Source of the DNA: Desulfobulbaceae bacterium | GTDB lineage: Bacteria; Desulfobacterota; Desulfobulbia; Desulfobulbales; Desulfocapsaceae | DNA: 49,294 bases | Direction of reading: 5' to 3' | Assembly: GCA_004796425.1 (NCBI GenBank) | Contig: QZLB01000075.1 | Location: forward strand, 1 to 49,294 | Shown here: positions 3,075 to 47,170 of the stretch, piece after piece | How positions within the stretch are numbered: the first letter of the stretch is position 1 | Layout: each line of letters begins with the position of its first letter | Notes under the pieces: generated by a model | What the model was told of the DNA's origin: nothing | What the model saw: the letters and a program-made list of their open reading frames with translations, nothing else | Databases searched by the model: none | Program-made: the position numbers and the translations under genes

Positions 3075-4994
3075 ATGGGTAAAATTATTGGAATTGATCT
3101 TGGAACCACCAACTCTTGTGTTGCGATTATGGAAGGTGGCGATCCAAAGGTTATTGCCAACGCAGAAGGAAACAGGACAACACCATCCGTCGTCGCATTC
3201 GCTGATAACAATGAGCGTTTGGTAGGGCAGGTTGCCAAGCGGCAGGCTGTAACGAATCCGGAAAGAACTCTTTACGCGGTAAAACGACTGATTGGTCGGA
3301 AATTCGAAGATGCTGAGGTTAAGAAGTCCATCAACATCAGTCCTTTCAAGATTGTCGAAGGTACGAACAAGAGTGTCTCGGTCGAAGTTGAAGGGAAGGT
3401 ATACCGCCCGGCTGAGATCTCGGCGATGGTTCTGGGCAAAATGAAACAGACTGCTGAAGAGTATCTTGGTGAGGAAGTAACCGACGCGGTAATCACCGTT
3501 CCTGCCTACTTTAATGATTCCCAGCGTCAGGCGACCAAGGACGCCGGTAAAATTGCCGGACTCAATGTTCAGCGAATTATCAATGAGCCGACAGCAGCCT
3601 CGCTTGCTTATGGCCTGGACAAGAAAAACGAAGAAAAGATTGCGGTATTTGACCTTGGCGGCGGTACCTTTGACGTCTCTATCCTGGAGATCGGTGATGG
3701 TGTTTTTGAGGTAAAATCGACTAACGGAGATACCTTTCTTGGTGGTGAAGACTTCGACATGAGGATTGTTACCTGGCTGGCTGACGAGTTCAAGCGCGAT
3801 CAGGGTGTGGATCTGCGAAATGACAAAATGGCACTGCAGCGCCTTAAAGAGGAAGCTGAGAAGGCCAAAATGGAACTTTCCACCACTGTTGAAACCGACA
3901 TCAATCTGCCGTTTATTACTGCAGATGCCTCGGGACCAAAGCATCTGAACATCAAACTGAGCCGGGCCAAGTATGAGACTCTGGTGGAAGATCTAGTAGA
4001 GCGAACCGTTGGACCATGTATGACCGCCATCAAAGATGCCGGCCTACAGCCATCCGATATCGATGAGGTTATTCTAGTCGGTGGTATGACAAGGATGCCC
4101 AAAGTCCAGGAGAAGGTTCAGGAGATTTTTGGCAAGGCACCCAATAAAGGTGTTAACCCCGATGAGGTCGTGGCAGTTGGTGCCGCAATTCAGGGTGGGG
4201 TATTGCAGGGCGATGTAAAAGATGTTCTGCTGCTTGATGTTACCCCGCTTTCTCTTGGTATCGAAACCCTTGGTTCGGTTACCACCAAGCTGATTGAGAA
4301 AAACACCACGGTTCCCACCAAAAAGAGCCAGGTTTTCTCCACGGCGGCAGACAACCAACCGGCGGTATCGATTCACGTGCTCCAGGGTGAGCGTGAAATG
4401 GCCCAGGATAATAAAACCATCGGTCGCTTTGAGCTGACCGATATTCCACCAGCGCCGCGCGGAGTGCCGCAGATTGAGGTTACTTTTGACCTTGATGCAA
4501 ACGGTATTCTCCATGTATCGGCAAAAGACCTTGGCACGGGCAAGGAACAGTCCATTCGCATAACCGCATCTTCAGGTTTGACCGAGGAAGAAATCGAGCG
4601 GATGAAGAAGGATGCCGAGATTCATGCCGAAGAAGATAAGCGTCGTAAAGAACTGGTTGAAACAAAGAATCAGGCAGATGCACTGGTTCACGCAACCGAG
4701 AAGAGCCTCAAGGAGCTTGAGGACAAGGTAGATGCTGAAACCAAAGAGAACGTTGAAAAAGAGATTGCCAACGTCAAGAGTGTCATGGAAAGCGATGATG
4801 TTGAGGAAATCAAGAAAGCCGTCGAGGCGTTGACCCAGGCATCCCATAAGCTGGCAGAGTTGATGTATGCCCAGGCAGCCAAGGATAATCCGGATGCAGG
4901 TGGTGATGATCAGGCCGGCGGCGGACAATCGGCCAACAAAAAAGGTGGCGATGATGACGATGTCGTTGACGCTGATTTTGAAGAAGTGAAATAG
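3075..4994 (+). CDS. dnaK: Molecular chaperone DnaK (Hsp70)
   Basis: DnaK, the ATP-driven Hsp70 that binds exposed hydrophobic peptides. At 639 residues it is full length. The nucleotide-binding domain starts with [10 protein letters not shown] and includes [25 protein letters not shown] and VGGMTRMP. The interdomain linker reads DVLLLDV, the peptide-binding domain follows (ETLGSV through the helical lid), and the acidic tail ends in DADFEEVK, matching the EEVD-like end of bacterial DnaK. AAGGAG lies just before the ATG. Together with grpE it forms the nucleotide-exchange half of the Hsp70 machine; the J-protein must be encoded elsewhere. A strong terminator follows at 5028-5065. The 146-base gap after grpE may hold its own promoter (TTGACA near 2950), but no -10 fits well. 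Confidence 0.98.
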
Positions 4995-38110: not shown

Positions 38111-39376
38111 TTAACTGAAAATACCTTTCAGGGTGAAGAAGAATAACATGGCCATCACTGCCCCGGCAGGCAGGGTTACCAACCATGAAACAATGATCTT
38201 GAAAACGACTCGAAGATCAAGAGCACCAATTCCCCGGGCCAGACCGACACCAAGTACCGAGCCAACCAGTATATGAGTGGTTGATACCGGAAGCCCGGTT
38301 CTACTGGCAAGCACAACGGTGGTTGCCGCTGCAAGCTCAGCGCAGAATCCGCGGGATGGGGTGAGCTCGGTAATCTTCCTGCCCACCGTCAACATAACCC
38401 GGTAGCCAAGTGTTATCAGACCAAGTACAATACCCCCACCACCGAGCAGAAGGATCCAGATCGGCAGCTCTGATTTCTGCATAACCTCACCACCTGAGCT
38501 TACAATCGAGACGACTGCTGCAAGGGGACCAATTCCATTGGCGACATCATTGGAGCCATGCGCAAAGGCCATGGCGCAGGCGGTGAAAAGCATCATGGGG
38601 GCGAACACCTTTTCTACACTGGCGTAATGAAAGTCACGATCGGCAACCGGATCAACCTTGATTCTACTGATAAAATACCAACCAACAGCAGCGGTAAACA
38701 ATCCGAAACAGACCGCGACGCCAAAGGACTGGGGAATACTCAGGTCGATCTTGAGGTGTTTGAGACCTTTGAACATGGTGACAAGGGAAATAATGAAACC
38801 AACCAGGAATACGTAAAAAGGGCCGTATTTTTTAGCATTCTGCAAGGGATTACTGGTGTCAAAGATTAACTTGCGGGTACTGATTACCAGCAGAAATGCA
38901 ATGGTCCCTCCGACAGCTGGACTGATTACCCAGCTTGCCACGACACTGCCCACCTTGTTCCATTTCACTGCCTCGGGGCTGATACCGACGATAGCAAAGC
39001 CGATCAAAGCACCAATAATGGAATGAGTGGTGGAGACAGGCCACCCCTTCCAGCTGGCGATCATCAACCAGAATGCCGCGGCCAGGAGTGCGGCAAGCAT
39101 ACCATAAACCAGGATTTCGGGATTGTTGACAATTCCAGATGGATCGATGATTCCCTTGCGGATAGTCTTGGTGACGTGCCCACCTGCCAGAACGGCGCCG
39201 GCAAACTCAAACACAATTGCGATGCAGATTGCCTGTCGAACAGTAATGGCACCCGCACCCACAGAAGTTCCCATGGCATTGGCAAGGTCGTTTGCCCCAA
39301 TTCCCCAGGTCATGTAAAGACCGAATATGACAGCCAATACCACGAAGACGGTGCCATATGCGACGATGATATCCAT
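38111..39376 (-). CDS. pit: Low-affinity inorganic phosphate transporter (PiT family)
   Basis: A PiT-family symporter that takes up phosphate (with H+ or Na+, often as a metal-phosphate complex) through the inner membrane. About 421 residues and ten or more helices. The two inverted family signatures are seen: GANDLANAMGTSVGAGAIT near the N-terminus and HGSNDVANGIGPLAAVV in the second half; the related GWPVSTTHSIIGA and GLPVSTTHILVGS repeats are also typical. ATG 39376 has AAGGGG eight bases upstream and is preferred over the ATG at 39382, which is too close to it. It follows the PhoU-like gene and the two are surely co-transcribed. No Pho box is visible upstream of the pair. Confidence 0.94.
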   Translation of the reverse strand: MDIIVAYGTVFVVLAVIFGLYMTWGIGANDLANAMGTSVGAGAITVRQAICIAIVFEFAGAVLAGGHVTKTIRKGIIDPSGIVNNPEILVYGMLAALLAAAFWLMIASWKGWPVSTTHSIIGALIGFAIVGISPEAVKWNKVGSVVASWVISPAVGGTIAFLLVISTRKLIFDTSNPLQNAKKYGPFYVFLVGFIISLVTMFKGLKHLKIDLSIPQSFGVAVCFGLFTAAVGWYFISRIKVDPVADRDFHYASVEKVFAPMMLFTACAMAFAHGSNDVANGIGPLAAVVSIVSSGGEVMQKSELPIWILLLGGGGIVLGLITLGYRVMLTVGRKITELTPSRGFCAELAAATTVVLASRTGLPVSTTHILVGSVLGVGLARGIGALDLRVVFKIIVSWLVTLPAGAVMAMLFFFTLKGIFS

Positions 39377-39388
39377 AATCATATCCCC

Positions 39389-40075
39389 TTATTTAGATAA
39401 AAAGAGCAGCAGTCTGTCTGCAACGTTTTCAGCTTGATCTGAGATACTGCCAAGCTGGTCGATAAGTGAATACCAGAACATCACTGAAACCGGATCTAGG
39501 CTTCCCTCGATCTCAAATAAGGTTCTTCGGGTACGATGCATGATACCGTCAATATTATGTTCCTTTCTTCTGACGCCAGCGATCATTTCTTCTACTTTTT
39601 TCTGCTCTCTTCCCCTGAAACCGAGTTGCAGGAGCTCATCGAGCTGCTCAACCATCGATTTAGCCGATCCGAGGATTTCCATAGTACCTTCAAGTAACTC
39701 ATCCAGTACCGCCTTTAGTTCCTTGGGTACCGTCATGTCTCGATAGCACAGAATTTTTGCTATCTCCTCGGCACGATCGGCAAGTTGATCCTGATCGCTA
39801 ATTAGTTTGAGCAGATCTTCACGATCCACTGGTAAGAGCAGCGTGTTGGGCATGCTCCGCCGGAATTCGTGCTTGATATCATCCGCCTTCGTTTCAAACT
39901 TGATGATTTCGTCCGCGATAGACCCGATCTGGTCTTGGTCTTTTCGATAGAGTGCATCAAAGAGCGAGGGAAGCAAACAGCTACAGGCGAATACAACCCT
40001 CATATGTTCCTGAAGTGGTTTAAAGGGAGAGGTCCTGAACAACCCGGACAATGGAGTCGTAGATTTAATTTCCAT
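39389..40075 (-). CDS. PhoU-like accessory protein (DUF47/TIGR00153)
   Basis: A 228-residue all-helical protein of the DUF47 family, distant relatives of PhoU. Typical features are repeated amphipathic helices with acidic metal-binding stretches (KADDIKHEFRRSMPNTLLLPVDREDLLKLISDQDQLADRAEEIAKIL). DUF47 genes almost always sit next to pit and are thought to regulate or assist phosphate transport. Here it is directly upstream of pit, six to twelve bases apart. No membrane segment. A 263-base region upstream separates it from the next gene. Confidence 0.9.
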   Translation of the reverse strand: MEIKSTTPLSGLFRTSPFKPLQEHMRVVFACSCLLPSLFDALYRKDQDQIGSIADEIIKFETKADDIKHEFRRSMPNTLLLPVDREDLLKLISDQDQLADRAEEIAKILCYRDMTVPKELKAVLDELLEGTMEILGSAKSMVEQLDELLQLGFRGREQKKVEEMIAGVRRKEHNIDGIMHRTRRTLFEIEGSLDPVSVMFWYSLIDQLGSISDQAENVADRLLLFLSK

Positions 40076-40338
40076 AACAACAGGCTCCTGCCGCAGCTCT
40101 ACAGATTGATCCGTCTTGAACTGGTCGGTTCTGAGGTTAATGTGCTGATTGAAATGTTAGAAAAATGTTAGAGGTTAGTTAGCAGAAAGAAGGGGGCAAA
40201 GACAAGAAGTATTTTCCATCGACAGTAAAATGTTTCACTTATTTTAACGCTGTCTGGTGATGCAATCAAAGGTAATACAGGATACCTGTTACCTAAGCAT
40301 ATGTTATGGCTATATGATATTGTGTTGGGACAACGAAC
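40076..40338. other. Upstream region of the PhoU-like/pit pair
   Basis: This lies before the PhoU-like gene and beyond the end of the P-loop/phosphatase gene, both on the minus strand. An imperfect inverted repeat is visible at 40270-40294 (AGGTAA...TTACCT, with an inner ACAGG/CCTGT), which could be an operator or a weak terminator of the gene at its right. A direct repeat AAATGTTAGA/AAATGTTAGA occurs at about 40153-40171. No gene or clear promoter is seen. Confidence 0.3.
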
Positions 40339-42429
40339 CTACTTCATTTTATTGATTAGTTTAAGAAGTGGTTCATAAGTGGAAGTGAGAGGAACCATGG
40401 CTCCTTTTATTCGGATGAAATAAGCCGGGCCATGTTGGTGTGAACTGCAGATGATGTGGTGATTTTTAATTGAGCTGACGTTCTGCCAGACACTGCCAAA
40501 GGGGTCAAGCGGTGTGTGACCGGCGATGAATGGTGTAGATTTCACTGCTTTCAGAACCTTGCGCAGCGCCTTGATCTCGGACTTACCGTAGCCGGATAGG
40601 TTATGAGGGAGTTTCGGTCTGGTTCGGGTTACTTCCTTTGCCGTTTGGGGATGATCTGTAATATTGATCAATTGTTCACGGGTCGTCCCTACCCTAGGTG
40701 GGCCTGCATGGCAGGCAATAAATGAGTCGGAACGAATCATGTAGGGAATTCGTTGGTAAAAGGTCTGCATTGCTTCTACATACCCACTTCCCCTGGTTTT
40801 CTGTAGGAATTGTTTCATGATCAGACCCTGCAGGACGCCATTTTTGGCAAGATCGTCACTGAAACTGTCATGATTTCCTTTGAGGTAAAACACATTTGCA
40901 GGAAATTTGCGTTTGAGTAGAAAGATCAGATCCATGATCAGAGCTGAATACTCCATATCCTCCATCTCTCCAGCGACCTCTGAATGTACCGCGTCGCCGA
41001 GGATACAGAGGTGGACCCTGTTTTTCACGAGGGCTTTTAAAATGCAGTTCTCGGTGATGATTTTGAGCAAATTATTGACCTGGCCGTGCAAATCTCCAAT
41101 AATGATCGGGATTTTGTCATCGGGTAATTCAACCAATCCCCCCGGTTCACCACGATGGTTTTGGGGACGATACGGTTCGTCTGCCAGAATCTCATTAACC
41201 TCAAGCAAAAGTGAAAGGGCGCTGCGTTGATTCAGTAACTCGATTTTTCCACCAAAGAGCGATCGTGCTTTTTTCATTGCAAGCATCCGATGGGTGGAGA
41301 GTTGTTCTCGGTTATCCTGATCATCCATGCGAATAATCTTAACGGAATATTCAGGTTCAAGTGGGGTGATAACCAGATCCCCTCGAATATTTGAGATTGA
41401 GAGGTGTCGTTTGGCGACGTGTTTTTTGAAATTAAATAAGGCGCTGTATGCTTTGTTAGCTCTGCCAATGACAACGGTCTCTCCCGGTTTGATTCGGGCA
41501 AAGGCGGTCATCGATTTCGAATTACAATTCTCAGGTGGTCGGATAATCCAGTTCTTATGCTGACGCAGGTATTTTTTTGATGCGCCTAAGGGAATTTCCG
41601 GAATCATGCGCAGGTGGGTGCGTCCGAAAATCAGGTCAAAGCTTTTACCATCATGGGATATCCTGGCAGCTTCGGCAATCTGCTGCAGCTCATCAGTAAT
41701 AGTGAACCAAGGTATGGTCTCATTCATGGTGAAGATCTGCTGCCACCGTTTTAAAGAGGTAAGTGAGCGGTTCGCAGTGGTTTTAGATACCGCCCAGAGT
41801 GGTAGGGCAATATCACCTTTTTCACTAATCAGCAGAGGAGGTTCGGTGATCGATCGTCTGATGTAGATATGCATGCCTCCACGATATAGATAAAGTGCAA
41901 GTTTGGCGTAGGCATCAATCTGCCGGGAGACCATTTCAACACTCAGATTTGCATCGACCGGGAAATACCCGGTTTTCTGGCGTTCCTGACGCCACTTGTA
42001 GACCAGCTTCGGGTCAGGGAGTAGAAATTCGAAAATATAGCGATCAATCCAGTTTGATTCTAAAAAAGCCAAACCACGGGGAGGGAATCTGATGCGATTA
42101 TACTCAATGGCAAGCTCTTCATCATTGGTGTCCAACCATTCCTGATCGAAAACGGTCAGGGCTTCAGAAAAACCCTTGTATGGTATCCCCAGGTGGATTT
42201 CTCGTGGCCGATAGATCAGATTTTGATTTTTCCACCATCTACGCTGGGTTAAATCAATATACCCCTCATTCGGCCACCCTTTAATCTGGTTGATGTAATA
42301 GGACTTACCCACCCCAGGCGGCCCGGTTACAATTAACTGGCGAAATTCCAGCCCAACCGGTAACTCTACCCCCCGAATATTTTGTGTTTCCCTGATCGGG
42401 ATGAGAATTTTATGCAGCGGGTCTTTCAT
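40339..42429 (-). CDS. P-loop, FHA-like and PPP-type phosphatase fusion protein
   Basis: A 696-residue soluble protein whose parts are separately clear. Residues 30-250 hold a P-loop NTPase or kinase-like domain with Walker A GPPGVGKS (36-43). Residues about 305-370 resemble a forkhead-associated fold (VVIGRANK, then KRHLSISN), the fold that reads phosphothreonine; this call is weaker. Residues about 438-690 form a calcineurin-like phosphatase with every metal ligand motif: GDLHG (445-449), GDAVH (478-482), GNHD (518-521), CHAGP with His574, and GHTPL (637-641). That set matches the PPP Ser/Thr phosphatase group. It may phosphorylate and dephosphorylate a shared target, or be an RNA/nucleotide repair enzyme. 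No partner gene adjoins. The function is unknown. Confidence 0.75.
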   Translation of the reverse strand: MKDPLHKILIPIRETQNIRGVELPVGLEFRQLIVTGPPGVGKSYYINQIKGWPNEGYIDLTQRRWWKNQNLIYRPREIHLGIPYKGFSEALTVFDQEWLDTNDEELAIEYNRIRFPPRGLAFLESNWIDRYIFEFLLPDPKLVYKWRQERQKTGYFPVDANLSVEMVSRQIDAYAKLALYLYRGGMHIYIRRSITEPPLLISEKGDIALPLWAVSKTTANRSLTSLKRWQQIFTMNETIPWFTITDELQQIAEAARISHDGKSFDLIFGRTHLRMIPEIPLGASKKYLRQHKNWIIRPPENCNSKSMTAFARIKPGETVVIGRANKAYSALFNFKKHVAKRHLSISNIRGDLVITPLEPEYSVKIIRMDDQDNREQLSTHRMLAMKKARSLFGGKIELLNQRSALSLLLEVNEILADEPYRPQNHRGEPGGLVELPDDKIPIIIGDLHGQVNNLLKIITENCILKALVKNRVHLCILGDAVHSEVAGEMEDMEYSALIMDLIFLLKRKFPANVFYLKGNHDSFSDDLAKNGVLQGLIMKQFLQKTRGSGYVEAMQTFYQRIPYMIRSDSFIACHAGPPRVGTTREQLINITDHPQTAKEVTRTRPKLPHNLSGYGKSEIKALRKVLKAVKSTPFIAGHTPLDPFGSVWQNVSSIKNHHIICSSHQHGPAYFIRIKGAMVPLTSTYEPLLKLINKMK

Positions 42430-43131: not shown

Positions 43132-45468
43132 TTAGTATGGTGTCATCTGCCAGATTCCGCATGGGCAGGTGTCTGCACAAAAGCCACAACCAATACATTT
43201 TGAATCATCTGAAACATATTCAAACTCATCCAAGTCACTTCCCTGATATGCTTCTCTGGTAATTGCACCGGTGGGGCAAATGGTTTCACAGAGATGACAA
43301 TCCCTACAGGTTGCACAAGAGAGACAGCGATCCGCCTGTTGTGATTCGGTGCTGCCAATAGCATCAGGATTGTAGTGCGTGATGGTGAGTGCCTGCTGGG
43401 GAATCAGCGGTTTGCTGAACGGTTTCCATTCCTGGCCGTTGATTTCTGCAATAATAAATTCAGCGGCAGTTTTTCCTGAACCCAGCGCGTCAGTTGCCAG
43501 GCCAGGTCGTTCCACATCGCCAACTGCGAGAATTTTAGCATCTGAAGTCTTATGGGATTCATCTGTCCGTATCCATTTGGCACCACCGACATCTGCGGTT
43601 TCTATTGAATCGGGCAGGAATGGCAGGGCAGGGACATCACCAATGGAGATGAATACGGTTTGCGCAGGGATCAGCTCACCGTTATCGGTCACTAATCCCT
43701 CATCGGTTACCTCTTTGGTCACGACTGGCCAGCGGAATTTGGCGCCAAGCCTTTCAGCCGCCTCTTTCTCCTTACCAAACGCGAGCGGTTTCTGGATATC
43801 TACCAGCGTAACATTCTGGGCACCCAACCGGTAAGCTTCGCAGGCAACATCACAACCGACGTTTCCTGCCCCGATTACCACAACATCCTTGCCGATATCC
43901 ATCTGCTCCAGACCTTTTGCCTCTTTAAGAAAATCAAGGGCTGGGCGCACACGTTCGTGCCCGGGAAATGGTATTCTCCGAGGTTCATGGGTACCAACGG
44001 CAATAATTATATAGTCATAATCCTGTTGCAGAGAGGCGAACTTGTCTGAATCCATGTCATGGTTCAGATTGACCGTAATGTTGGAGAGGGAGGTGAAACG
44101 CTTTATTTCTTCATCCCAAATGGCTTGTGGCAGTCGTTCCCACGGAATAACCTGGGCCAGTTTACCGCCAAGCATCGAATCACGTTCAAAGATATGTGCC
44201 TCTACACCCTGCATCGCCAGTTGCCAGGCCGCATTCATGCCACCAGGACCACCGCCGATAATTGCCACTTTTTTACCGGTGGAGTCAGCCTGTTCCGGGG
44301 CGGGGAAGTTTGAAACCGCTCGACCGAGCACCTGCATTTCAATGGAGCCGTCGATGCCTACCCGTGTACAATTTTCCATACAGAGGTTTGGACACACCGC
44401 TCCGCATACTGAAGCCGGCAATGGGGTGTAACCGAGAATCATCTGGTACGCTTCTTCGATTTTTCCTTCCCTAATCAGACGAAGACGTTCAACGGTTGGG
44501 ATATGAATCGGACAATAGTAGGTGCAGGGTGCCGCTGATTCACTGTTGGCCCACCATGGTTTTCGTCTTCTAAGCTCTCCAGTCACGATGGTGCCAATCT
44601 CAGAACGGTCAAGCCCGGGTGAGAGGTCGCGAAGTGGGTCTCCACCGCCAAACGCTTTGTTCCAGAAGTTGTTTCTGAATTCAGCCATCGGCATAGGACC
44701 GGAGAAGAGCAGGGCACGCTCCTGTGGAGAGACCGAATTTAAAACCTGCCATTCATCACGTTTGGTCAGTTCATCTAAAAGCTCGGTGCGACCGATCTTA
44801 TCCAGGTAAGTGGGGATATTATCAATCAACCATTGCCATTGTTCATCGTCGGGCCTGTCAAGTTTTGCATTATTGCGGGAGTATGAATCATCTGTCTTGC
44901 CCCGGAAAAAGATCTGACCACCAACCATCCCAACACAGGGGCGGTAGCCCAGAATATTTTCAGGAGATTTGGGATCAACACCGCAGACCACGGCAATACC
45001 GCCGCAGTTAAATTCAGCAAAGGAATCACCCGTGGAGCCAAGAACCCAGAGTTCGGGCTTCTCGTAATCGGGATTCCATTTCGTCATGGTAAGCCCTCTG
45101 GCTCCGATGGATCCCTTTACATAGACCTTCCCGGCGGCCATGGCATTACAGGCACCGTTTGTCGCATCGCCGAGAACGGTGATTTCTGCACCGATATTGA
45201 GATAACCAACATCGTCAGAAACTGCTCCATTACAAGTAATGACGGTTCCGGGCATGCCCATTGAGCCAAGTCTCTGGCCGCATGGTCCGTTAATTTCAAG
45301 CTGCAACCCGTCTTCATGCTGGAGACGAATACCAATATTATGCTGACCGTAGGATTCGAGAACCAGTCGGGATGATTCAGCCGCTGCCTCACGAACCATC
45401 AGCTCATAATCCATCGAGCTGATACGCACGCCATTTTCATCAAGTCCTTTCACAACCTTTTTACTCAC
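43132..45468 (-). CDS. Glutamate synthase: GXGXG domain fused to GltD-like FAD subunit with ferredoxin tail
   Basis: A 778-residue fusion that supplies the third part and the electron-input part of a split glutamate synthase. Residues about 20-250 form the GXGXG beta-helix domain that normally ends GltB (LGSMGMPG, GYLNIGAEITVLGDATNGAC). From about 295 the chain is GltD-like: a Cys-rich Fe-S segment (CTYYCPIHIPT, CGAVCPNLCMENC), FAD motif IIGGGPGGMNAAW, and NAD(P)H motif VIGAGNVGCDVA. The C-terminus carries two 4Fe-4S ferredoxin motifs (CATCRDCHLCETICP and CIGCGFCADTCPCG). Start is GTG at 45468 with AGGAG upstream. In many organisms these parts are separate genes. Electron donor could be NADPH or ferredoxin. 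Confidence 0.88.
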   Translation of the reverse strand: MSKKVVKGLDENGVRISSMDYELMVREAAAESSRLVLESYGQHNIGIRLQHEDGLQLEINGPCGQRLGSMGMPGTVITCNGAVSDDVGYLNIGAEITVLGDATNGACNAMAAGKVYVKGSIGARGLTMTKWNPDYEKPELWVLGSTGDSFAEFNCGGIAVVCGVDPKSPENILGYRPCVGMVGGQIFFRGKTDDSYSRNNAKLDRPDDEQWQWLIDNIPTYLDKIGRTELLDELTKRDEWQVLNSVSPQERALLFSGPMPMAEFRNNFWNKAFGGGDPLRDLSPGLDRSEIGTIVTGELRRRKPWWANSESAAPCTYYCPIHIPTVERLRLIREGKIEEAYQMILGYTPLPASVCGAVCPNLCMENCTRVGIDGSIEMQVLGRAVSNFPAPEQADSTGKKVAIIGGGPGGMNAAWQLAMQGVEAHIFERDSMLGGKLAQVIPWERLPQAIWDEEIKRFTSLSNITVNLNHDMDSDKFASLQQDYDYIIIAVGTHEPRRIPFPGHERVRPALDFLKEAKGLEQMDIGKDVVVIGAGNVGCDVACEAYRLGAQNVTLVDIQKPLAFGKEKEAAERLGAKFRWPVVTKEVTDEGLVTDNGELIPAQTVFISIGDVPALPFLPDSIETADVGGAKWIRTDESHKTSDAKILAVGDVERPGLATDALGSGKTAAEFIIAEINGQEWKPFSKPLIPQQALTITHYNPDAIGSTESQQADRCLSCATCRDCHLCETICPTGAITREAYQGSDLDEFEYVSDDSKCIGCGFCADTCPCGIWQMTPY

Positions 45469-45529
45469 AGAAGAACTCCTTATAAAGAATCGTTGGATTC
45501 TGAATTACCTGTTACGCTGGTATGAATGA

Positions 45530-47170
45530 TCAGCATACATATTTAATATTGAGTCGGTCCGCTGCATCCTTGTCATTGATTCCGATCGCATCTGACATAC
45601 CGATGGGTAGGCTCTGCGAACGGCCCAGAGGAGCCATGATCTTTTTGACTTCAGTCTGGATAGACATGAACGATTCGGCAACCCTTTCGGCTACTTTGTC
45701 CGGGTCAAGCCTTCGATACAGTTTCGGGTTCTGACTGGTAATGCCTTTGGGGCAGATGCCGACGTTACAGACATTACAGCGATTCTGCTCGTTACCAAGG
45801 CAACCTGCGGTAGCCTGCATGATGTATTTGCCAATATGAACGGCACTGGCCCCCAGCATTACCAGGGCCATACCGTTCTGGGCTACATTGCCATTCTTAC
45901 CAATGCCGCCGGCTGCGTATATCGGGATCTCGTTCTGCTTGCCCTGGGCAGCCAGGTCGAGGTAACACTCTCTGACATTCGAGGCAACCGGGTGTCCTGT
46001 TGCATCCATCGACACATTATAGGCCGCCCCTGTTCCGCCATCGATTCCATCGATCAGGAGTCCTCCTGCATAGGGGTTTCTCACCAGGTTGTTCAATACG
46101 GCTTTAGCCGAAGTAGATGCAGAAATTTTGGGGTACACCGGAACCTTGTGATCAAATGCCATTGACAGGGTCTGAATCATCTTCATGACACTTTCTTCAA
46201 TGGAATAGAGGGTCTGGTGAACCGGTGGCGAAGGGAGATCCACGCCTTCAGGAACCCCGCGCAGACGGGCAATCAGTTTGGATACCTTGTACCACATGAG
46301 CAGACCACCGTCTCCGGGTTTTGCACCCTGGCCATATTTGATCTCTATGGCGGCAGGGTGGCACTGCATATCCGGAATAGCCCTGATAATCTCATCCCAG
46401 CCAAAGTAACCGGAAGCGATTTGCAGGATGATATATTTCAGGTAGGGGCTTTTCAGTACCCACGGTGGACAACCACCCTCACCGGTGCACATGACCACCG
46501 GTATACCAAGAACTTCATTGCAATAGGCGACTCCCTGCAGCAGTCCAAGCCACATGTTTGGCGACAAAGCCCCAAAAGACATCGAGCCGATCACGAAGGG
46601 GAAGATCTCTCTGGTTGGTGGTATCCAGCCGCCTTCGCTCGAACGCTTAAGGTAGTCCTCGGGTGAAAGGATACGTCCCAGGGTCGTGGTTACCGTGAAT
46701 TCATGTCTGCCGGCATCAAGGGCCGGATCGGTCAGCATTGAAATGCGGTCAAACATAATTCGGTCGAGTAAAGTCGGTCCGGTTGCATTACGCCGACCGC
46801 CACGCTTGGGAGCTTCGCCTTTTATATTGTCGAAGAACAGTGTGCGGTTTTCAATGGTGTTTGGCACGGGGGCAATCGCTTCATTGGGGCAGACCATTGC
46901 ACACATTCCACAGCCGATACAGGCATGTTTGGGATTCGGTTTCTGCCTGATACCGACAAAGGTGCGGTAATCGTTTCCTCTTTTTTTACTGAGGATTTCA
47001 AGCTTTGGCACCCGTTGCCTTCGGTAGGCAAGGTAGATGCTTTCTTTCGGACAGACCGTCGTGCAATGTCCGCACAGCGTACACCGATCCTCACGGTGCT
47101 GAATTACCCACGGGAGATCCGGATAGGTTAGGCTGCCTGGCTCAACGGGAATTGATCGTACTGGGACCAT
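45530..47170 (-). CDS. Glutamate synthase FMN/Fe-S catalytic subunit
   Basis: The 546-residue central synthase subunit. It binds FMN and an Fe-S cluster and aminates 2-oxoglutarate to glutamate. An N-terminal ferredoxin-like part has two cluster motifs (CTLCGHCTTVCP and CIGCGMCAMVCP). The TIM barrel follows: YNEVLGIPVVMCTGEGGCPP-type text, the FMN-phosphate region GLLIDGIDGGTGAA, AAGGIGKNGNVA, and the 3Fe-4S cysteines in CNVCNVGICPKG. The ATG at 47170 lies inside the end of the amidotransferase gene (43-base overlap) and has AAGGAAC upstream, so coupling is likely. The subunit arrangement resembles archaeal-type glutamate synthase. Confidence 0.92.
   Translation of the reverse strand: MVPVRSIPVEPGSLTYPDLPWVIQHREDRCTLCGHCTTVCPKESIYLAYRRQRVPKLEILSKKRGNDYRTFVGIRQKPNPKHACIGCGMCAMVCPNEAIAPVPNTIENRTLFFDNIKGEAPKRGGRRNATGPTLLDRIMFDRISMLTDPALDAGRHEFTVTTTLGRILSPEDYLKRSSEGGWIPPTREIFPFVIGSMSFGALSPNMWLGLLQGVAYCNEVLGIPVVMCTGEGGCPPWVLKSPYLKYIILQIASGYFGWDEIIRAIPDMQCHPAAIEIKYGQGAKPGDGGLLMWYKVSKLIARLRGVPEGVDLPSPPVHQTLYSIEESVMKMIQTLSMAFDHKVPVYPKISASTSAKAVLNNLVRNPYAGGLLIDGIDGGTGAAYNVSMDATGHPVASNVRECYLDLAAQGKQNEIPIYAAGGIGKNGNVAQNGMALVMLGASAVHIGKYIMQATAGCLGNEQNRCNVCNVGICPKGITSQNPKLYRRLDPDKVAERVAESFMSIQTEVKKIMAPLGRSQSLPIGMSDAIGINDKDAADRLNIKYVC

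Follow-up and report, generated by a model that had tools for sequence, protein, structure and literature searches.

The question raised by this locus is what role is played by a protein that joins, in a single chain, a predicted P-loop kinase and a PPP-type phosphatase. The respective gene (40339..42429, minus strand), for which, as for its product, we use the working name T, is located in a 49,294-nucleotide stretch of DNA from a Desulfobulbaceae bacterium (hereinafter, the window, always at its full length); coordinates of T, its parts and the two genes that follow it all refer to the minus strand. The open reading frame starts with ATG, has no internal stops and encodes 696 amino acids that comprise a P-loop kinase-fold domain, an FHA-like beta segment and a PPP-fold phosphatase, all three predicted. 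A sequence-only reading of this DNA had proposed a kinase-PPP fusion here, and the frame is indeed intact, with the motifs located where that reading placed them. Full-length orthologues of T are found at 49-64% identity, so that the join of the domains is conserved rather than accidental. In the main alignment (A3), 52 orthologues accompany the window protein, and every sequence comes from the family of the window (hereinafter f1); a 22-sequence alignment that includes the window protein (A1) is from the same family, and an orthologue cut by a contig end (L101) was excluded from alignments A2 and A3. The Walker A pattern GPPGxGK[ST] is invariant in A3 (53/53), as are D59, R147, R150, D446, H448, D479, N519, H520, H574 and H638.

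No whole-length family model for T was found in Pfam, NCBIfam, PHROGs or PADLOC, with zero PADLOC matches of any kind. The sole Pfam domain above the cut-off in the window protein is calcineurin-like (residues 443-667, E = 1.8e-9), and the 53 members of A3 together match 15 NCBIfam families at E up to 1. Judged by titles in the open-licence literature, nothing on this architecture was found in print. AlphaFold2 models were obtained for the whole protein (mean pLDDT 79.5) and separately for residues 1-385 (mean pLDDT 78.2). T is best filed as a real, conserved and unnamed two-enzyme family of the kinase-plus-phosphatase kind; the label of an unrecognised kinase-phosphatase given by the sequence-only reading fits a protein that has predicted kinase and PP5/PP1-type folds and no family model of its own.

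The phosphatase fold is, judging by the model, the best-supported part of T. Residues 384-691 (40357..41280) are predicted to form a PP5/PP1-type phosphatase with an N-terminal helix at 401-416; the best rows of the fold search have Z 26.9 and rmsd 2.8-3.1 over 267-268 residues at 16-18% identity. PP5, PP1, PP2A and calcineurin, which are among the fold matches listed (Z 25.2-26.9, 16-18% identity), share this fold with T, including the N-terminal helix, along with the metal ligands. The ten-residue blocks of the model mostly have pLDDT of at least 85, and residues 640-652 are below 50. The five PPP metal-ligand motifs that had been claimed at residues 445-641 are all present: GDLHG at 445-449, GDAVH at 478-482, GNHD at 518-521, H574, and GHTP at 637-640, a span of residues 445-640 (40510..41097) in which each ligand from D446 to H638 is among the residues invariant in A3. 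The window protein scores 38.7 bits against the Metallophos model (PF00149; cut-off 21.5), which is matched by 53/53 members at E up to 1. With a domain above the curated cut-off and the metal ligands intact, T can be assigned, at the sequence level, to the PPP/calcineurin-like superfamily.

Classical PPP phosphatases carry the signatures GDxHG, GDxxDRG and GNHE. T differs from them in all three: alanine replaces the final glycine of GDxHG in 42/53 members (mostly GDLHA), an invariant H482 (53/53) occupies the place of DRG in GDxxDRG (mostly GDAVHSE), and GNHD is found instead of GNHE in 53/53. Although the metal ligands are kept, T appears to lie outside the classical PPP protein phosphatases, and the changes make it less likely that this is a phosphoprotein phosphatase of the ordinary sort. 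Among other families, PHROGs gives a match to a NinI-like phosphatase (6e-6) that covers the phosphatase part only, and 37/53 members show likeness to PdeM (best E 4e-4), for which the window protein reaches 13 bits against a cut-off of 150 bits.

For the N-terminal half, residues 28-215 (41785..42348) are likely to adopt a P-loop kinase fold, as indicated by the model. The top fold match is OdinAK (Z 8.4, rmsd 3.8, 136 aligned residues); adenylate kinases are the nearest, followed by YorR (7.9) and the kinase of bacterial Pnkp (4gp7, 7.5), with nucleoside kinases, thymidylate kinases and zeta toxin further down. These values are middling and, because just three chains reach Z 8 or more, we leave the kinase subfamily undecided: the fold search of this half, which the sequence-only reading had called for, brought out a P-loop kinase fold, and nowhere does a single family stand out. 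Foldseek returned zero matches for the kinase part at E <= 0.001, and a sequence profile compared with the PDB picked up a single chain, that of an adenylate kinase, with E = 1. The Walker A motif GPPGVGKS is present where it had been reported (residues 36-43; 42301..42324). Beyond it, D59, R147, R150, D159 and Q170 are invariant in A3; R147 and R150 (41980..41991; each 53/53) are candidate lid arginines, a role that we assume by analogy with P-loop kinases. When plasmids were searched with a consensus of the kinase part, the sole match was an ABC transporter (E 0.09), which was discarded.

The middle segment, described at residues 320-347 as FHA-like, is harder to place. The IGR (321-323) and KRHLSI (340-345) motifs are there, and profile comparison, motifs and model together delineate a partial and degenerate FHA-like segment at residues 309-366 (41332..41505). 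For a profile of true FHA domains, 18 sequences of related genomes were chosen by motif pattern from 30 loci (20 found, two discarded as cut short); residues 285-385 score 25.3 with it over 52 columns, against at most 21.9 in 60 column shuffles and at most 17.2 for other parts of T. The likeness is remote because the true FHA set, when split in two, gives a score of 237 between its halves, and the global alignment of residues 240-385 scores 14.4 only. These comparisons point weakly to a remote, partial match that is yet above the shuffled controls. At E up to 1, Pfam FHA (PF00498) gives no match to the window protein and is matched by 9/53 members (best 0.007).

In FHA domains, phosphothreonine is contacted by the arginine of GR, the serine of SRxH and the asparagine of NGT. 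The GR arginine (R323) is kept in 44/53 members, the serine place before RH is occupied by A in 38, S in 10, G in four and D in one, and no NGT follows residue 350 in the window protein. With the NGT part gone and the serine place mostly alanine, classical phosphothreonine binding by this segment seems unlikely. At residues 305-370, where a sandwich would be expected, both models contain five short strands (311-313, 318-321, 343-348, 351-356 and 363-366), but a helical chain follows. The fold matches listed for the N-terminal part are filled by kinases and other P-loop proteins, and no FHA structure is among the matches listed for either model. Of the FHA claim, then, the two motifs and a profile score above shuffles stand, whereas the NGT half and a Pfam match of the window protein are missing. 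A circularly permuted FHA domain was also considered; residues 240-300 score 17.2, which is equalled by one of 40 shuffles, and a doubled FHA template raises the score only from 25.1 to 27.8, so that permutation is unsupported.

T is present in a single copy in the genome of the window and is found at 61% identity in Desulfofustis glycolicus DSM 9705 (Desulfobulbales, Desulfocapsaceae). Matches were detected in 63/93 genomes of the family, some by fragments only, and in 84/257 genomes of the order; the weak matches in two of the latter (G515 and G517) are ABC ATPases and were removed before T and PiT were tabulated, leaving 82 T-bearing genomes. These comprise 61 of f1 and 21 of a second family of the same order (f12), which appeared first in the order search; three of the 82 (G019, G459 and G477) are fragment cases. 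In the phylum sample, 7/395 genomes match, with full-length T in two genomes of the window's family alone (G000 and G006) and the phosphatase only in the other five. Other phyla were covered by plasmids, phages, viral contigs and one scan of close relatives; in phages, plasmids and viral contigs no homologues of T were found at the limits used. The same architecture, a search for which had been suggested from the sequence, thus exists in full-length relatives, which among the genomes searched are confined to the order of the window.

What distinguishes T most clearly is its genomic context, which the sequence-only reading overlooked: this kinase-phosphatase gene lies ahead of a PhoU_div-PiT pair. 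In the window, T is followed by a 263 bp gap (40076..40338) with no convincing promoter or terminator, a PhoU_div/DUF47 gene (39389..40075, 228 aa; PF01865, 9.6e-52; TIGR00153 above the cut-off) and a PiT (PHO4) transporter gene (38111..39382, 423 aa; PF01384, 3.1e-121). The surroundings of T were read in 73 loci (54 of f1, the window included, and 19 of f12), of which 71 are readable; L101 and L195 break off within T, at the end of their contigs. This set does not take in nine of the 82 T-bearing genomes, three with fragments only (G019, L105; G459, L102; G477, L103) and six whose flanks are not in the locus count (G016, G028, G465, G472, G546 and G566). A same-strand PhoU_div gene directly follows T in 67 of the 71 readable loci (49/53 in f1, 18/18 in f12; in L038 it was detected by tblastn), and PiT follows PhoU_div in 65/65 loci where the contig continues. 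There are four exceptions: in G014, G481 and G482, T is kept and neither PhoU_div nor PiT comes after it (G482 has a PhoU_div-PiT pair without T on another contig), and G444 has PiT but no PhoU_div that could be detected. The upstream genes vary: many f1 loci have glutamate synthase genes there, the g7 loci have a different set and the g4 loci have others again, and f12 shows at least five gene sets. That T, PhoU_div and PiT form a three-gene unit that stays whole amid these varying upstream genes is the best evidence that they share a role; a link of T to phosphate transport is well supported.

In f1, the distance from T to PhoU_div is 20-657 bp (T is nearer in the g7 loci, from 20 bp, than in most other loci of the family), whereas PhoU_div and PiT are separated by at most 16 bp in 33/49 loci and by 48-329 bp in the other 16, suggesting that T may in many cases be transcribed separately. 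The PiT protein of the window retains both aspartates of the repeat motif, D32 and D279, and its length (423 aa) fits group Bv. In a study of this family, the motif aspartates are tied to phosphate rather than sulfate transport, and the mean length of group Bv is given as 412 aa (PMC5840216). The alternative of a sulfate permease was rejected given a CysP-like NCBIfam score of 122 against a cut-off of 400 and the conserved aspartates; on sequence grounds, a phosphate carrier is the preferred assignment.

With a close PiT relative defined by E up to 1e-150 (76-100% identity among the matches listed), the 257 genomes of the order, kinship ignored, divide into 69 with T and close PiT, 13 with T alone, four with PiT alone and 171 with neither. 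Several of the T-alone genomes are cut by contig ends or have T fragmented. Of the PiT-alone genomes, G453 and G462 each have a partial T; in G514 the contig ends inside PhoU_div and T was not found elsewhere in the genome; and G632, from another family of the order (L193), has a T-type PhoU_div-PiT pair (57% and 81% identity) without T. Among T-bearing genomes, G036 (L158) has a second T-type pair (PhoU_div 72%, PiT 83%) and G025 (L165) a second PhoU_div gene (70%), neither with an adjoining T; no PiT gene is present in the stretch read in G025. In nine T-less genomes compared with the window, the PiT proteins encoded beside PhoU_div are 47-49% identical and the PhoU_div proteins 26-33%. A PhoU-like gene adjoining PiT is common to T loci and to other PhoU_div-PiT pairs, among them that of Staphylococcus aureus, where the PhoU homologue gene pitR is reported to adjoin pitA, and where PitA showed no significant two-hybrid interaction with the tested proteins, PitR included, a result on which the authors urge caution (PMC11705898). 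The T-linked pairs differ in that they are closer to one another than to those of the T-less genomes compared and have a kinase-phosphatase gene in front.

Given the position of T before PhoU_div-PiT, a hitherto unrecognised switch for phosphate uptake suggests itself. We tentatively favour, at slightly below even confidence, a two-enzyme regulator of this phosphate-uptake unit, with opposed kinase and phosphatase acting through PhoU_div. T would carry two opposed catalytic domains, with predicted activities of a P-loop kinase and a PP5/PP1-like metallophosphatase; the FHA-like beta module would link them and might help place the substrate; T would add phosphate to, and remove it from, a partner, either one of the transport proteins or a small signal in phosphorylated form, and might thereby adjust uptake by PiT through PhoU_div. 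The analysis shows active sites whose residues are conserved in the two halves, the folds as predictions and a conserved gene order; reversible phosphorylation as the mechanism, both activities, the substrate and the direction of control we infer. This reading is also favoured by the joint occurrence of T and close PiT relatives, the divergence of the pairs in T-less genomes, the aspartates retained by PiT and the pitR-pitA neighbourhood. Counting against it are the T-PhoU_div gap of 20-657 bp beside the often much closer PhoU_div and PiT, the exceptional loci, the T-type pairs without T, the altered PPP signatures, the middling Z values of the kinase fold with its lack of Foldseek matches at E <= 0.001, co-occurrence counts in which kinship is ignored, and the negative two-hybrid result for PitA. 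A further version, in which T has a rebuilt FHA module and sets the activity of PiT by phosphorylating, reversibly, PhoU_div or else a small phosphate signal, appears doubtful; that module might be circularly permuted, with strands at 264-277 replacing the missing last strands. If true, prokaryotes would have a switch for phosphate uptake that is distinct from PhoR-PhoB. PhoU-type control of transporters is still poorly understood, and the T unit offers a concrete candidate enzyme.

Unlikely, in our estimate, is that T is a metabolic pair of phosphate storage that makes and breaks a phosphorylated metabolite or polyphosphate from phosphate supplied by PiT. Such a role would agree with the resemblance of the kinase half to kinases of small molecules, above all those of adenylate and nucleosides, and with the non-classical PPP signatures, and has a precedent in yeast Ppn2, a PPP-family endopolyphosphatase. 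Yet at E up to 1 none of the 53 members matches a polyphosphate kinase or exopolyphosphatase family, and the neighbours kept in both f1 and f12 are PhoU_div and PiT only. In cable bacteria, Desulfobulbaceae of the same order, one study describes ppk1 and ppk2 in strain YB6 and polyphosphate in others, in line with storage, as well as PiT that varies between groups (PMC12093952).

It is rather improbable that T is a one-way protein phosphatase acting on PhoU_div, PiT or another protein, with a P-loop half that only senses or hydrolyses nucleotides: the strength of the phosphatase fold and its model and the weak sequence signal of the P-loop half, with its one PDB chain, are as expected from this, but the invariant D59, R147, R150, D159 and Q170 look like a substrate site, beyond nucleotide binding.

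The two systems that T calls to mind differ from it in several respects. In bacterial Pnkp (TIGR04075), too, a single chain has a P-loop kinase and, after it, a calcineurin-like phosphatase, whereas T is without the ligase end, has the FHA-like segment between the domains and is encoded next to phosphate-transport genes; mammalian PNKP, like T, brings a kinase and a phosphatase together in a single protein, along with an FHA domain where T has its FHA-like segment, but with another domain order and a phosphatase that is HAD-type rather than PPP-type. A repair enzyme for nucleic-acid ends, as suggested from the sequence, here an end-healing enzyme of the Pnkp or PNKP kind, is unsupported and, as the least likely reading, highly improbable: the shared combination of a P-loop kinase with a metallophosphatase, the Pnkp kinase among the fold matches and the likeness of 37/53 members to PdeM, a ligase-associated phosphoesterase, far under its cut-off, stand against the absence of TIGR04075 from the 15 NCBIfam families to which any of the 53 members has a match with E up to 1, zero matches to it in the window's genome at E <= 0.001, a phosphatase that reaches residue 691 of 696 and leaves no room for a ligase end, and the conserved PhoU_div and PiT neighbours.

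Several minor observations concern the loci themselves. In L102 and L103, T has lost large parts and survives as a remnant; in L102 the remnant is still followed by PhoU_div, so that T can decay while its neighbour stays. In L188 (G522) and L196 (G562), T occupies two frames that overlap, and PhoU_div and PiT come after it as usual; the split could reflect sequencing error or early decay. By the look of the sequence, L138 encodes a stand-alone PPP-like phosphatase (3845-4810) in the vicinity of an integrase-like gene and of a fragment resembling a restriction methylase. In the window, glutamate synthase is encoded in separate pieces (43132-47170), one open reading frame consisting of GXGXG, a pyridine-nucleotide oxidoreductase and a ferredoxin end, and the next piece resembling, by its sequence, the FMN domain with a ferredoxin part. 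Finally, in two genomes of genus g10 (L106 and L107), T is absent and a divergent PhoU_div-PiT pair (26% and 47% identity, respectively) follows the same glutamate synthase gene.
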